Below are positions 15,995-24,164 of a DNA stretch of 64,000 nt, one piece after another. The DNA is taken from contig MCGO01000049.1 in the NCBI GenBank assembly GCA_002104985.1, positions 62,001 to 126,000 on the forward strand, given 5' to 3'. The position numbers were made by a program, and so were the translations under genes. Each line of letters opens with the position of its first letter. The stretch's first letter is position 1. Origin of the DNA: Rhizoclosmatium globosum (taxonomy: Eukaryota > Chytridiomycota > Chytridiomycetes > Chytridiales > Chytriomycetaceae). A model generated the notes under the pieces. The model was not told the origin of the DNA and made no database searches. It worked only from the letters and a program-made list of their open reading frames with translations.

Positions 15995-18480
15995 TTATAA
16001 AATGTCAAAATGCTTTTGGATACTGCTCATCAATGATCCATGCGTAATAACGGCTGAAGCTGTGATAGATCGTTGGTTTCTCCAGTGCACCAACTTGACC
16101 AAGTCACTACCACGAAGTGAGAAGTAAAACCACATAGTTGCAACTTTCAGAGATTCCTTCGCTCGCCAACAAGTTCCAGAATTTTGACACAATTGCCGGG
16201 GACACTCACTCAAATACTCGGTGCTTTCGTGACAGATTGGAAGTGGTTGAGCCAGGTTGTACCAACAGAGAGCAAGTCCTCGTTTTGCGCCACGATGCCC
16301 TTGTAATGCAGCTAAGTGAAAGAACTTGATAGCTTGGTCAAGATTCTTATCAAAGAAGACGCCTCGATAGTGAAGTTCACCCAATTTGTGCTGAGCTTCA
16401 CTTTTTCCTTTATGCGCGGACAGTGTAAAGCATTTGACAGCAGCTTCGATTTTGTTTTCATTCATGAACCAAATGCCTAATTGATACTGAGCTGATTCGT
16501 TTGATTGTTTGGCGGACAACTCAAGCCACTTTACTGCCTCTTTCAAGTCTTTTTGGACACCATGGCCGTTGTAATAGCACATTCCCAGCCAATACTGGGC
16601 GGAATCGTTTCCTTGGGTTGCAGACATATGAAACCACTTGAAAGCATCGAGTGGGTCTTTCTTGACACCACGCCCTTTATAATAACACAACCCAAATCGG
16701 TATTGCGCCAAAGCATTTCCTTTCTCAGCTGATACGCGAAAGTATTTTGCAGCTGTTGCAAAATCGTTTTCAATACAAGAACACAGTCCCAAATAGTACA
16801 GCGATTCAGAGTTTCTCGATAATTGAAACCATTTTCGCGCTAATTCCACATTGTTTTCCACGTCAAGCCTATTGAAGAAGCAAACACCCATCTGGTAACG
16901 AGCTTCAACGTGTCCTTTGTCAGACGCTTGACGGAACCATTTCACTGATTCAATCAAGTTTGCTTGAACACCAATACCATTCAAATGACACATTCCCAAC
17001 TGATACTGCGCATCCTCGTTACCTTGACTAGATGACAACGTTAACAATCGAAAAGCCTCTACTTCATTCCTCTCAATTCCCAAGCCATTAAGACAACACA
17101 TACCCAGCCTATACTGTGCCCCTGAATGTCTGTTCTTGACAGACAAGCGGAGCCATTTCACAGCTTCCACAACATTTACAGAATCTAGGTGACAAATCCC
17201 CAAATAATATTGTGCATCAGCGTTTCCTTGTTTCGCAATGAGATGAAACACGTTGATGGCTTCACGTAAATTCTTGGTAACGCCTTTACCGAGGTAATAG
17301 CATAAACCCAGTTGCAGTTGTGCGGCAACGTTAGCATGATTAACGGGGTCCAGAATCAAATTCGTTTTGAACTGGGATGTTGTCTTCCACATGTAGAATA
17401 TGGATTTCTTCAGAAGAGGGGTCTTTTGTAGATTGAATTTGACTGAAACGTGATCCGTCATTATTTTCGCGTACAGGTGCCGTTGAGAAATCACCTTCGC
17501 GTACAAACGTTAGTCCAGCGTTATCAACACTATAGTGTGGAGGTACTCTTACCTTCACTACTTTGGGGCATAGACAGCGTTTCCAATGTGTTCACGATTT
17601 CATCAAAGCCAGGTCGAATTGATGGATTTTGAGCCCAACACTTTTCAATCAAATTCCATAATCCATCTGATATTGTGTCAGCTGGAGGGTCATGGCACTG
17701 AGCTCCCGTTCTGTACGGCCTCTGACGGTTTATGATCCAATTTATAACGGTTTGCGGTTCGTTCGCGCTTTCTTCGCCAATGAAGGGACGGTGCCTCGTT
17801 AACACTTCGTAAGCTGTCATTGCCCAGCTGTACACATCGTATTTCGGTGTTGCTATGTACCCTCGCTGATGAGATTCCGGTGGCGAGAAGAGATATGCCC
17901 CTCTTGTGGGATCTCTCGATGCTGCATAGCTATAGTTTGCATGGAACCGACTCATTCCGAAATCAGAGATACAAGCCTTTCCTTTGCCATCTAGAAATAC
18001 GATTTAGGTAAGTCGATTTGATCTGTTGAAACAGATATAATGTACTCCACCGAGTAAGACATTATCCGGCTTCAGATCGCGATGGATGACTGGTGGGTTT
18101 CTTGAATGCAGGTATTTGAAAGCATAGGCAATATTGAGGAGCCACTGGGTACGCTCCTCCTGCGTTGGAACAGGACTTAATCTCAATCGTTCATCCAAAG
18201 TCATTTCGAGGCGATCAACTACGAGCATCGGCTGCCCCATCTCTGTCCTTGCGATGCCCCATAGCGTGACAATGTTGGGATGGCGTAGGGAGTGCCATAT
18301 GACTGCTTCTTGGATGTCCCTGATGAGTTCGCTCGATTCAGCCTGGATTCTCGTGAATGTTTTGATGGCGACATCTGTTGTTTCGTATTTGCCTGCGTAG
18401 ACGGTACCATAGCAGCCGCGGCCGAGAACTTTGGATGTTCTTGTGATGTGGATCTCGGGGACTTGGTTTGCTCCACCCAT
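15995..18480 (-). CDS. TKL-type protein kinase with C-terminal SEL1 repeats
   Basis: ATG at 18480-18478. Exon 1 (to 18051) encodes LGRGCYGTVYAG (Gly loop), VAIKTFT (ATP Lys) and VIHRDLKPDNVLL (catalytic loop). Exon 2 (17990-17553) encodes DGKGKACISDFGMSRF (Mg-binding DFG), FSPPES in the activation segment and YDVYSWAMTAYEVLT. After one more intron, about eleven SEL1/TPR-like repeats of roughly 36 residues run to the stop, each with the AQYxLGxCY..G.GV pattern (for example AQYWLGMCYYNGHGVQ). All catalytic residues are present, so an active Ser/Thr or dual-specificity kinase is likely, with the SEL1 array as a protein scaffold. It shares a 313-bp upstream spacer with the LRR-oxygenase fusion gene, which also ends in SEL1 repeats. 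Confidence 0.85.
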
Positions 18481-18793
18481 TTTCGTTGAAGAAATTCCAT
18501 CAGTGATAGTAAATCGCGTATAATGATATTTCTTATAGTTAATTGCTGTCAGTGATAGTGTTCCTTGCCAAGAATGAATTCAGTTCACACAATGTTTTCG
18601 CTGTTACGCGTATCAACATATTGAAATGACGCGTCAATGCTGGCACTATATTGATCCAAATGGTACAGTGTCTCTATTTTCCCCTTAATCCTTAACTGTG
18701 AACAACCACTAAATTGACGCCTGGTTTTCCTTTTCTCTCCACAAAACTCACCTCAACAGCCATCGACCGATTCTCCAACTAGCTCCTACTCGA
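18481..18793. promoter_or_regulatory. Divergent intergenic region of kinase-SEL1 and LRR-oxygenase genes
   Basis: This 313-bp spacer separates two head-to-head genes and must hold both promoters. The 11-mer TCAGTGATAGT occurs twice on the plus strand, near 18501 and 18549, 48 bp apart. No function is known for it. No coding signal was seen. Confidence 0.45.
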
Positions 18794-21700
18794 ATGATCG
18801 GCACTCTGAACACGCAGTCGGCAGCCGAAGAAGGGTTCATTAAGCAGCAGGTTTAGTAGATCCCCGAGCACTCAAAGCAACGCACTCACCGCCCCGGGCC
18901 CAGGTCCTCGCATTTACCGATCGCAGACAGTTGTTTGTCGCAGTGCACACGTTGGATGCCGCTGATCCGCGTGTCCTGGCGAGCAAGCAAAGCCTCGATC
19001 GCATCTTCAACTACCTCGACTCGTCGCTGGCGGATGTGACTGTCGTTGAACTCAAGTCGAGAATGAATGCGGATACCCTGACATTCACATTGAATCCTGG
19101 TATGGATCAAGATGCCGTCCAAATCTTGTAAGTCACGTGACACGTTGAAGGTGTAGTTCAAGATTGGTGCAAACATTCATAGGCATCTCGCCGACACATT
19201 CTCGGGCTTTCTTGCCCAGGAGTTTGAAGTATTTCAAAATCTTCGTGTCATGTGAGTCCTTATATTTACATTGTCTGAAACGTGTGTCTAATCTCCGTAC
19301 TATAGCAACATCTCACGCAGCAAAATTAATGGCTCGATTCCATCGTGGTCATTCAACCATCTCAACTTTCTGTAAGTGACGAAAAGACTTGAAAAGGTAC
19401 CTGGTCTAATTAAAAACCGTTAGGAACCTTCCCTCGAATAACTTGAGTGGAAACCTGCCAGACTTCAGCAGAATGACGTCTCTCACGCATTTGTGAGTAT
19501 TTTGACTTTATCGAACGTGTTCAGGTTCTAACAGTATATGTTAGGAATCTGGCCAATAATGCACTGACAGGAACTATTGATGGCGTTTCGGTCCTGACTA
19601 ATCTCGTTCACTTGTATGTTCAACGTGCCATATCTAAGGTGTTAAAAGTCAATATGACAACAGAAATCTGAGCTACAACAAAATCACCGGTGGTGTTAAA
19701 CTTGAACACTTATCCAACGCACTGGAAGTGATTGACCTGTCTCACAATGCTCTTGTGGGGGGCATTCCTGATCTTTCTGCACTGGGAAATCTCAAAGGCT
19801 TGTGCCTCAACAACAACAACCTCAATGGACCATTCCCAATCCTTCCAACGTCTGTCCTAAAAGTGTAAGTTTTTTGTATTGTTTCTTCCAGAGTATTATT
19901 GACTGAAGTGTAGGTGGCTTCAATTCAACGCTTTAGACGGGTCCCTCCCAGATTTCGTCAATTTCAACAACCTTCAGGAATTGTGAGTTTGCAAATCTTG
20001 AACAAAACGTTGTCTAATAGTATATCATATGAAGATGTCTGAATAATAATCGGTTTGGTGGGTTCCTCAACTTGAGATTTCCCCAGTCTCTCGCCGTTCT
20101 GTAAGTAACGTAGAAATGTCAAGCGGGTGTATTTACAGATTTGCATTGAAGGGATCTCTATGGAAACCAATTTAAGGTCCGGTTCGATCCGACTGTCTCT
20201 TCACAGCCATATAAACTTGCTTATGTGAGTGAACTTCAGTCTTGTTTTCATTTCGACTTAGCTGTGTTCGCAATTCAGGCTCACTTTGACGAAAGTACTC
20301 CAAAGTATCTGCTTTCAAAATCAAACGGATTCTTGCCAGCAGACTTGGTATCCACCATGAACCCACCTGTTCACGGCATCACAGGTATCGACCGTTGGAC
20401 CGACGTCGTTAGGCGTTTGCCTGACTTGTTAAAAGAACCTGTGACTCTTCGAACTGAAATTGCCCAATTGCCATCTCTCGTTGACTTCTTGAATAATCAT
20501 ACCAATGTCTACTCGTTATTCCGGGTTTCCTGCATGGCATCAAACCTCTGCCATGTCTATTTCTATCATGGAAATCCTGGAAAGCTGCAACCACCCACGA
20601 GCATCAAAAAGACATGGCTTCGAGCGCGAGAACTTTTGGGTTGGACAGTCGAAGCAGTCGAAAACCTCCCAACCGATAATGCACCGTACTTATCGTATAT
20701 TGACTTTATTGTTGTCAACTTCAAGTTCAAAGTTCAAGTCCCAAACACAATGGCACCGCTTGAGGTACTCAAAAACCCAAGGAACCTTCGCGTGTATGTT
20801 CCAACGGCTCCCTGTCTTCCATCGCCCCAAGAACCAAATGCTGTTGAAGCGTCTAGCCCAGAAGACATGTTTTACATGTCGCAGCTCAGTATGCTCGCTG
20901 TGATGGCGGATCTCCCGTTCCTTCTCGCTGATTTGCAACGGTCGGCTCCTGATATGCTTTCTCCAAACCCTGCAAAACAGGCTGGAGCTTTTAAGCACAT
21001 TGCGAAATCGCTCAAAACTGTCTTGGATATTGTTCGCAAAGTCACAGAGACTTTCGAACTCATTACAATGCACGAAGGAACTTCCGACCATGTATCGTCT
21101 CTCTTCTTTGGTCGAATGTTCGCCAGCACTGCGATCTTGGCTCCATTTGTGCGAAACCCTGAAACAGGGCAGTACGACAAAGCCCGAACTGCTAGTGGTC
21201 ACGGAATCTTGACTCCAGGCCCAGGTGGTCAAGCATCGCCATTCTTCTGTCTGATGGACTACTTTTTGAACCGCAAGAGCTACAATACCCACTTGGGACA
21301 TCACACAGACCTGCATCTCAACAGCTACCCAGCCGATTGGATAAATTTCTTGAAGGCGCTTCGTTCTCCACATATTAACGGATTCTACCACTTTGATGAA
21401 TACTTGAGAGTTCTTGACGCTACTATTCCCGCGCATTTCCAAGTTCTCGATCTGTTCAACTCGATTTTGGAGTCCTATGCTGGCGAATCTGGATTTTTGG
21501 GTCGTCACTTGCTGAAGCTGCATGGTTATCTTACCGGAATGTTCCGTACGGGTCGTGAGGGGACTATTGGTGATGCGAAGGCCGGTTCCGTTTTGAACCG
21601 CACTGAAGATATGCTGTACTCCATGATTGAAACATCTCGTCTCGAGAGATTTGAGTATATGCTCCCAATGTTTGGTCGGTCTGCTGACGTCAGGCTTATT

Positions 21701-24164
21701 GATGAAGTTGGTTCTGGTTCGGGAGTGTGGAACATTCAATTGGAGGCACCGTTGCGGTGTCATGATAATCCCCACAGTGGTGGTCATATTATGGTCACTC
21801 CAAAGAACGTGGAACTGCCACTTTTGGAAAGATTGACTTCAATCGCTGGAACAAACCAAATTGTTCAAAAGCTCTGTCAAAGTGTCGAATGGAAACGGCA
21901 TTTGGAAATGCGACGGGCTGAAGGCACTCTTCAATCTATTCTGACATTCGGAGACTGCCGAGCTCTGTTGGAGAAGGCGCAGGAATCTGATGAGATTCTT
22001 TTAAAGTTTCTTTCCAAGGTGGTACCGCTGAGACCGCGAACATACTCTTTGGCGAGAGCAACGCCACGTCTCAGTATGGTCATTAGAAAGCAAGAGCATG
22101 GCGTGGCTTACAAAATGTTTCAAGAAATGAGCCAAAATGTCCTCGGTTCAGTACCTGTCGCATTCCCAACCACACCTTTGCGTTTGCTTCCAGATGTATT
22201 TTCTCCTGGCCTTCCTCCACTAGTTATTTTCGCAGCAGGAACAGGAATTTCTCCCTTCGCCGACATCATTGGAGACTATCGCGGAAGCCGTGACATTCTT
22301 TTTGTTTGGTTGTCAAACACTTGCAGAACTCAAGTCGACTCTCTTGGAGCGCGTCTGGGAAACACTGCAAGAGGTCTTGGAGGCTCCAACTTTCAGTCAC
22401 TGGTTGTTTGCACAGCTCGACACCACGAACCAGTTGTCACAGAGTCAGACGTGAGGTTTGAACAGTTCCATGTGAGAGACTCTTCTCGTACCGGTCGTAT
22501 GGAGCGAGTTTTCAACGAAGCTCGATCTTGTAACATTCACCGTTTGAGAGAGCTGAACGCTCGCGGTTGCGACTACCGAGTTTGTGGCTCTTCGGGATTT
22601 GTCGCTGATATTATTTCATTTGTTGATACTCACGTGGTATCTCCTGCAGGAGGAGATATGAAAACCTTGGTTGGACGTGGGAGACTTCAAGTCGAAGCGT
22701 TTTATGACCCTGTTCCAAGAACTTTGCCATCGATTCAAGCGAGAGATGTCTTGATGTCTGTTTTGAATGAGGGTCAAGCTCCAATGATGGTAATCAACGG
22801 AGAGGTTTACAGTATCACCAAGCAAATTGAGGCGCTTCATCCTGGAGGAGGTCTTATCTTCGGCTTCTACCATGGAACTGACGGGTCCAAGCCGTTCAAT
22901 CAAATCAAACACAACTTGAATGACGGTGTCATGGGACTTGCTCAAACTTGCCACATTGGCCATCTGGCGCCGCCAGCTAATAACGAAGTAATGCAGAATT
23001 GTTGGGGCGTTGCTGAAATTCGAAATGCAATTCGCATCGAGTACCGGTTGCATGCGTCGCTGCGAGAAATTGGTGTCGAGGACAACACAGCAACATCAAT
23101 TCATGTCGTTGAAGCCTACAAAAGCTATAACCGTTTCATGAATGTTCACCTCCCAAACCTGAAGTCTCTGTTCCCAGATATTTGCCAGAGGTTGGTTGCC
23201 TCCAATGAAGCTCAATTCTCGTTCACCATCAAAGCTCAAACCGTCTTTGAGAGTTTTGAAAGGCGAACTGAAGTTCAAGACTGTGTGTTTAGGTTCTTGG
23301 ACGGTTTACTGGAAGAATGTGCAGCCCTCTTAGTTCCTGTTGCACTTGTACCACTTGTCCCAATACCTGCCCCAGCATCAGTCCCAGCACCAGTTCTAGC
23401 ACCAGTTCCAGCACCAGTTCCAGCACCAGTTCCAGCACCAGTTCCAGCACCAGTCCCAGCACCAGTTCCAGCACCAGTCCCAGGAGGCATGAGTTACAGA
23501 CAACGCCAATTCCAGCTTGGCCTCGATTACGAAAAAGCTAACGACATTCCCAACGCCATTAACGCGTTTCGCAATTCCGCAGAGCAAGGGCATGCGGAAG
23601 CTCAGAACAAACTGGGCATAATTTACGAAGAAGGTCGCGGCGGCATAGCTGCGAATTATGCTGAGGCGTTCATGTGGTTCAATTTGTCATGGATTTGGTC
23701 AATATCGCCTCGGAATGTGTTATAAGAATGGACATGGTGTCCAACAGAGCTTCACCCAAGCCTTTTTGAATTTCCAAAATTCAGCGCAAGGAGGAAACCC
23801 GTTCGGACAATATCGACTGGGTCTTTGCTACGAAAAGGGAGAAGGAGTTGAAATGAATCTAGAGGAGGCGGCAGCGTGGTTTCATCGTTCCGCCATTCAA
23901 GAAAATTCAGATGCCCAAGTGCGATTAGGTTTCTGCTATCAACGTGGTCAAGGTGTTGCTCAAAGTTACGAATCAGCTGTTGAATGGTACCGAAGTGCTG
24001 CTGAGCAAGAGCATTCCTGGGCTCAACATCAACTTGGCTACTGTTATGAAAAGGGGCGTGGAGTGCAGCAAAGTCGGACAGAGGCTCTAAATTGGTATGG
24101 AAAGTCTGCAGCGAAAGGAAATGCTGCAGGAAAGGAAGCGCTTGAGCGGTTAATTCAAGTTTAA
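18794..24164 (+). CDS. LRR / IDO-PrnB-like haem / FNR reductase / cytochrome b5 / SEL1 fusion protein
   Basis: Eleven exons: 18794-18850, 18904-19127, 19183-19251, 19306-19371, 19424-19492, 19545-19613, 19664-19864, 19914-19982, 20035-20100, 20152-20224, 20279 on. Exons 3-10 encode leucine-rich repeats ([31 protein letters not shown]). Exon 11 first encodes a helical domain resembling the indoleamine dioxygenase/PrnB haem superfamily ([15 protein letters not shown] helices; [16 protein letters not shown] at about 21501-21548). Next is an FNR-type flavin reductase: RTYSLAR near 22036, [10 protein letters not shown] near 22230, [10 protein letters not shown] near 22582. Cytochrome b5 follows ([22 protein letters not shown], both haem His). 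Then come a (PAPV)n linker and SEL1 repeats. Near 23687 the frame breaks, giving an in-frame stop at 23725; the SEL1 repeats resume in another frame to 24164. No signal peptide. Probably a self-sufficient cytosolic oxygenase; substrate unknown. Confidence 0.78.
23380..23482 (+). repeat. 12-bp minisatellite encoding the PAPV linker
   Basis: Near-perfect tandem copies of a 12-bp unit (gttccagcacca and variants with gtccca), about eight copies. They stay in frame with the fusion protein and encode Pro-Ala-Pro-Val repeats between the cytochrome b5 region and the SEL1 repeats. A rigid, length-variable linker is the likely effect. Confidence 0.85.

Follow-up and report, generated by a model that had tools for sequence, protein, structure and literature searches.

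The gene at positions 18794..24164 (+ strand) of the window, the 64,000-nucleotide stretch of DNA from the aquatic chytrid fungus Rhizoclosmatium globosum analysed here (contig C365:62001-126000 of a 56.9 Mb, 420-contig assembly), probably encodes a self-sufficient haem oxygenase of the indoleamine 2,3-dioxygenase (IDO) type. Judging from its sequence, we put the probability of this reading at about 0.62. Leucine-rich repeats (LRRs) are followed in one predicted chain by an IDO-type haem domain, a flavin reductase (FNR) of the kind found in cytochrome P450 reductase (CPR) and nitric oxide synthase (NOS), and a cytochrome b5 domain. Sequence comparison establishes that this order is conserved in two genera, Rhizoclosmatium and Chytriomyces. 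The domain motifs, the b5 histidines and the SEL1 repeats behind them lie where the original prediction had placed them. The features are as follows.

18794..18850, +: exon 1 with the start ATG (gene model; orthologous ATG at C33:47888 in a second copy of the gene)
18904..20224, +: exons 2-10, N-terminal region and LRRs, mostly one LRR per phase-2 exon
20279..21679, +: IDO-type haem domain, at the start of exon 11 (Pfam IDO in 4/6 relatives, hhalign, structure model and fold matches)
20882..20884, +: Gln at the distal site (His in 8 prokaryotic IDOs, Ser in the genome's own canonical IDO)
21113..21115, +: Arg of uncertain correspondence to IDO1 Arg231 (ambiguous alignment)
21506..21508, +: candidate proximal haem His (FLGRH), codon CAC, residue 453 of frame 20150-23725
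21680..22702, +: FAD/NAD(P)H reductase domain, CPR/NOS type (profile matches to NOS, P450BM3 and CPR; Foldseek)
22769..22966, +: cytochrome b5 domain, haem ligand His codons at 22838 and 22910
22967..23323, +: conserved C-terminal region after b5, common to six relatives
23324..23488, +: Val-Pro-Ala-Pro repeat linker
23489..24164, +: SEL1 repeats, with a break after 23688 and continuation in another frame to 24164

Gene structure and conservation of the domain order

From the start codon onward, ten GT-AG introns of 49-55 nt precede one long exon beginning at 20279. Eight introns in a row have phase 2; of the ten LRR-side exons, seven, from the third onward, measure 66-73 bases. By eye the small exons joined to the long exon mostly carry one LRR each and exon 19664-19864 about three, so that the predicted rule of one repeat per exon holds for most exons but not for this one. 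The product of exon 1 has no obvious signal peptide on inspection by eye. One uninterrupted frame of 1191 aa (20150-23725) connects the last LRR with the IDO domain, FNR, b5 and the linker and extends into the first SEL1 repeat. The region at 22967-23323 gave no Pfam family match.

A search of about 5.8 billion proteins, with 7992 candidates scored, returned six relatives, all from Chytriomyces: three from C. hyalinus HDU80 and one each from C. hyalinus HDU78, C. confervae and C. cf. hyalinus JEL632. In the protein search they are 49-53% identical to the window protein across the aligned IDO region. All six have the order LRR, IDO region, FNR, b5, with the LRR match below cut-off in P0001 and P0004 and a stretch of the IDO region missing from P0006. 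When shorter proteins were searched by profile (7995 candidates), the sole addition was a partial Rhizoclosmatium hyalinum protein that agrees with the window frame at 563/568 positions. These searches rely on shared exact words, and distant fusions elsewhere could escape them. No relative of the fused protein was found in prokaryote genomes, a weak negative because a scan with canonical IDO likewise found none there; plasmids gave no match to relative P0004, and canonical IDO occurred in 10 plasmid records, of which nine were taken.

The gene model and the homologues support the view that the LRR, IDO-type, FNR and b5 parts form one gene, as had been predicted. The competing explanation is an artefact, in which annotation or assembly has run two or three adjacent genes together. 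In its favour, the gene models of the relatives are themselves predictions, and the SEL1 part is frame-broken here and absent from the relatives. However, the junctions are the same in two copies and in the six annotated homologues of other species, and the frame is continuous from the last LRR to b5; an artefact is therefore very improbable.

The SEL1 tail is a different matter. The repeats are unmistakable in the Pfam scan (E 7.2e-37), yet in the window copy they do not share a single frame with the other domains, and they occur in 0/6 relatives, so that the idea of scaffolds at both ends does not hold generally. The opposite strand beside the gene (window 15995-18579, -) carries one frame for a protein kinase and one for SEL1 repeats; the latter is a possible source of the lineage-specific tail.

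The IDO-type haem domain

There are good sequence grounds to regard the putative haem domain as a divergent IDO homologue. The Pfam IDO family PF01231 exceeds its curated cut-off (26 bits) in four of the six relatives (33.1, 33.8, 41.9 and 36.6 bits); P0006 reaches 17.7 bits, below the cut-off, and P0002 gives no match. The candidate proximal residue, His453, pairs with the proximal His of canonical IDOs by both hhalign and MAFFT and is invariant in 8/8 alignment rows. The 16-letter protein motif of the helical domain on which the original prediction had drawn lies within 21494-21574. A structure model and fold search also matched the IDO fold. In the hhalign shuffle controls, very high scores appeared in 1/60 and 1/100; the two were traced to 33 columns in a two-row tail, which was then trimmed off, and to 11 columns at a profile end.

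Several observations weigh against this assignment. The window copy has no PF01231 match at E<=1 in the Pfam scan, and a PF01231 search of its own genome, run at E<=10, picked up the separate canonical IDO alone and not the fused copy. We thus use the label divergent IDO-type homologue and do not treat the protein as a strict Pfam member. Searched alone against Pfam, NCBIfam and PDB, the window copy returned no IDO. With a profile of the IDO region only, human IDO1 was the first PDB match, yet at E 0.028, with unrelated chains from 0.064 on; with the full alignment, LRR matches swamped the result. The fold match is not independent, because the alignment behind the good model included 24 canonical IDOs; the model built without them was poor (pLDDT 43) and was used for the reductase fold only. 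The residues have changed as well. The distal residue is Gln, at a position that we take to be that of Ser167 in human IDO1, and the equivalents of Arg231 and Phe226 are ambiguous in the alignments; all three are substrate-binding residues of human IDO1. Leu replaces two residues that are invariant in the canonical IDO alignment A4: a Glu, and the Arg that stands three positions ahead of the proximal His. Identity to canonical IDOs is 16-22% in MAFFT alignment A5, in which the canonical GTGGT loop was set onto the reductase GTGISPF of the full-length relatives.

The original prediction had left the haem family between IDO and PrnB, to be decided by profile search. The IDO half of that proposal is borne out in the relatives, as described above. 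PrnB was rejected: PF08933 gave no match at E<=1 in seven proteins. A PF08933 search of the genome was also empty, but its controls gave no match either, and the fold-match lists contain no PrnB or TDO, which does not exclude PrnB or TDO.

Reductase and cytochrome b5

In sequence the flavin reductase corresponds to the FAD/NADPH half of an enzyme of CPR/NOS type. The motifs RPRTYSLAR (22031-22057), AAGTGISPF (22232-22258) and VCGSSGF (22580-22600) agree, VCG included, with the FAD/NADPH motifs of the CPR group, and GRLQVEAF resembles a CPR C-terminus. Among the best 60 of 121 matches of the FNR-b5 profile are cytochrome b5 (1e-5), the NOS reductase 1f20 (1.2e-5), and P450BM3 and CPR (about 1e-4). 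In Foldseek the poor first model, built from fused sequences only, matched folds of DUOX, flavohaemoglobin, FNR and CPR at E 5e-7 to 2e-4, among the best 50 of 73 matches under 1e-3. Against this, the Pfam NAD-binding profiles remain below cut-off. No FMN domain was found: neither the window frame nor any of the six relatives matches a flavodoxin family at E<=1.

The b5 domain is the more clear-cut. It passes the Pfam cut-off in the window copy (E 3.1e-7) and exceeds it in all six relatives. Its motifs HPGG (22838-22849) and IKHN (22904-22915) hold the two histidines, H897 and H921 of the frame, which are 24 residues apart and invariant in 8/8 rows; in b5 proper the two axial histidines are likewise 24 residues apart. 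The predicted fusion of FNR and b5 to a haem-dioxygenase-type domain is thus upheld.

The second copy and selection between copies

A second copy lies on contig C33 (C33:30001-67918), collinear with window 875-38884 at 96.7% identity. Kynureninase (C1/C91) and FAD_binding_1 genes (C168/C20, C146/C66) are also present in pairs. This collinearity and these pairs suggest that both haplotypes of a heterozygous genome are present in the assembly; the C33 copy is most simply the other haplotype, with a large duplication as the alternative. All ten intron sites are also GT...AG in the C33 copy, which has an open frame of 1604 codons through the SEL1 end (1603 with a second possible acceptor). Fourteen bases present there are missing after 23688 in the window copy, which breaks the SEL1 frame, and the VPAP linker is 48 bases shorter in the C33 copy. 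A 55-nt intron predicted in C33:48763-49018 is absent from window exon 19664-19864, an intron presence/absence difference in an LRR exon. Between the copies, introns are identical at 471/519 positions and LRR exons at 916/963, so introns differ more (Fisher p = 0.0017); the contrast is conservative because exon mismatches beside the extra intron were counted in.

The dN/dS values between the copies, from one sequence pair with few differences, are 0.25 for the LRRs, 0.30 for IDO, 0.09 for FNR, 0.02 for b5 plus tail, and 0.24 and 0.27 for SEL1 before and after the frame break. The stronger constraint on FNR and b5 than on IDO would suit a reading in which the IDO domain survives as a relic with a structural or sensory role and NADPH, FAD and b5 reduce an outside partner held by the LRRs or SEL1. 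Between genera, however, the IDO region, proximal His included, is better conserved (56-58% identity) than FNR-b5 (39-40%), and we regard a relic as decidedly unlikely.

Proposed function

The likely mechanism of a self-sufficient IDO-type oxygenase would be electron flow from NADPH through FAD and b5 to the IDO haem. This is the simplest reading of the fused order because human IDO1 is reported to be supported by NADPH/CPR with or without b5, although the excerpts concerned call the relevance in vivo unclear (PMC13142367, PMC4032907, PMC4191572). Parts of two of these sources relate that superoxide was proposed first as reductant of the IDO haem and cytochrome b5 with CPR later (PMC4032907, PMC4191572). 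In the fused protein NADPH would reduce FAD, which would hand single electrons to the fused b5, and b5 would fill the shuttle role held in CPR by the FMN domain. The b5 would then reduce the ferric IDO haem and keep it ferrous and O2-competent; alternatively, it could give the second electron for monooxygenase-like chemistry. Through its LRR half the enzyme probably docks to a cytosolic partner, and the SEL1 tail would be a later, lineage-specific addition.

Separate canonical IDO, 3-HAO and KYNU genes of the kynurenine pathway exist elsewhere in the genome, so that the fused gene looks additional to what NAD synthesis needs. In the canonical stand-alone IDO (L021 2236-2405, C346) there is an apparent frame break between two coding stretches. 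Since these canonical genes are present and the distal pocket is altered, the sequence suggests that the substrate is probably an indole or another aromatic in secondary metabolism or signalling, and not one for bulk NAD synthesis. The same facts bear on whether the protein could be a self-sufficient tryptophan 2,3-dioxygenase, an IDO with its own reductase making N-formylkynurenine. The IDO-type fold and proximal His would fit, as would a possible Arg231 equivalent that by eye lies nine residues past a conserved Asp, as in canonical IDOs. The separate pathway genes, the low identity to canonical IDOs and the several changed canonical invariants argue against it, and from the sequence this activity appears unlikely, with a small but appreciable chance.

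The enzyme could also be an IDO-fold analogue of flavohaemoglobin, in which FNR-b5 re-reduces an O2-holding IDO haem and the protein removes nitric oxide as a dioxygenase or serves some other O2-dependent detoxification, with no indole oxidation. The genome gave no globin match with PF00042 (E<=0.001) or PF01152 (E<=1), profiles that matched in 3 and 4 of 14 control genomes, but the search went exon by exon and could miss an intron-split gene. The absence of a detected globin is perhaps unusual for an aerobic fungus. Flavohaemoglobins rank high among the Foldseek matches of the first model, and the distal residue is changed; flavohaemoglobin is not known to contain b5. Flavohaemoglobin is itself built as a haem domain plus an FAD domain (PMC1457004). 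Excerpts of PMC4191572 describe low-activity IDOs and, in molluscan families without conventional myoglobin, IDO-derived myoglobins, and since the fold has been re-used for other tasks in this way the nitric oxide dioxygenase keeps a place among the candidates, as an unlikely one. A similarly unlikely reading is that, in a fungal lineage without detected globin, NO detoxification with O2 or the oxygenation of some other compound than tryptophan passed to an IDO-type haem domain with CPR-like reductase and b5.

If the preferred reading of an IDO-type oxygenase fed by its own reductase and b5 is true, a natural IDO-type/CPR-type/b5 fusion would give independent evolutionary support for the CPR-b5 electron route, make that route measurable in a single protein and offer a source of self-sufficient haem-dioxygenase chemistry. 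How the IDO haem stays ferrous in cells is debated, according to passages of PMC4032907, PMC4191572 and PMC13142367.

Comparison with known systems

The claim that no enzyme with this order had been described agrees with the open-access literature searched, where no such fusion was found among the matches listed; passages of PMC5350241, PMC12115818 and PMC8887899, the last of which reports transcriptomes of R. globosum life stages, contain nothing on it. The fused protein resembles the IDO family (PF01231; IDO1/IDO2, fungal IDOs) in its modelled fold, collinear profile alignment, candidate proximal His and GTGG-like loop. It differs in its altered distal pocket, in an insertion before the GPGGQAS motif and in being fused to LRRs, reductase and b5, whereas the canonical IDOs compared are stand-alone proteins of 358-444 aa. 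PrnB (PF08933), to which the fused protein has no profile match, is described in excerpts of PMC11791213 as structurally similar to IDO and TDO; tested with b5 and with CPR, it gave no detectable product. With flavohaemoglobin the fused protein would share an O2-binding haem domain and an FNR module, but an IDO-type fold replaces the globin, a domain that neither the window frame nor the six relatives match at E<=1, and b5 is added.

The diflavin reductases (CPR, the NOS reductase domain, P450BM3, sulfite reductase) share the FAD/NADPH half, and we take the reductase motifs and C-terminal aromatic to be theirs; unlike them, the fused protein has b5 after the reductase and no FMN/flavodoxin domain was found in it. 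Fusions of cytochrome b5 with b5 reductase are known in nitrate reductase and Ncb5or, which likewise hold an FAD reductase and b5 in a single chain. Here, in contrast, a CPR/NOS-like reductase precedes b5, and what they are joined to is an IDO-type haem domain; partners of these kinds are reported to supply human IDO with electrons as separate proteins.
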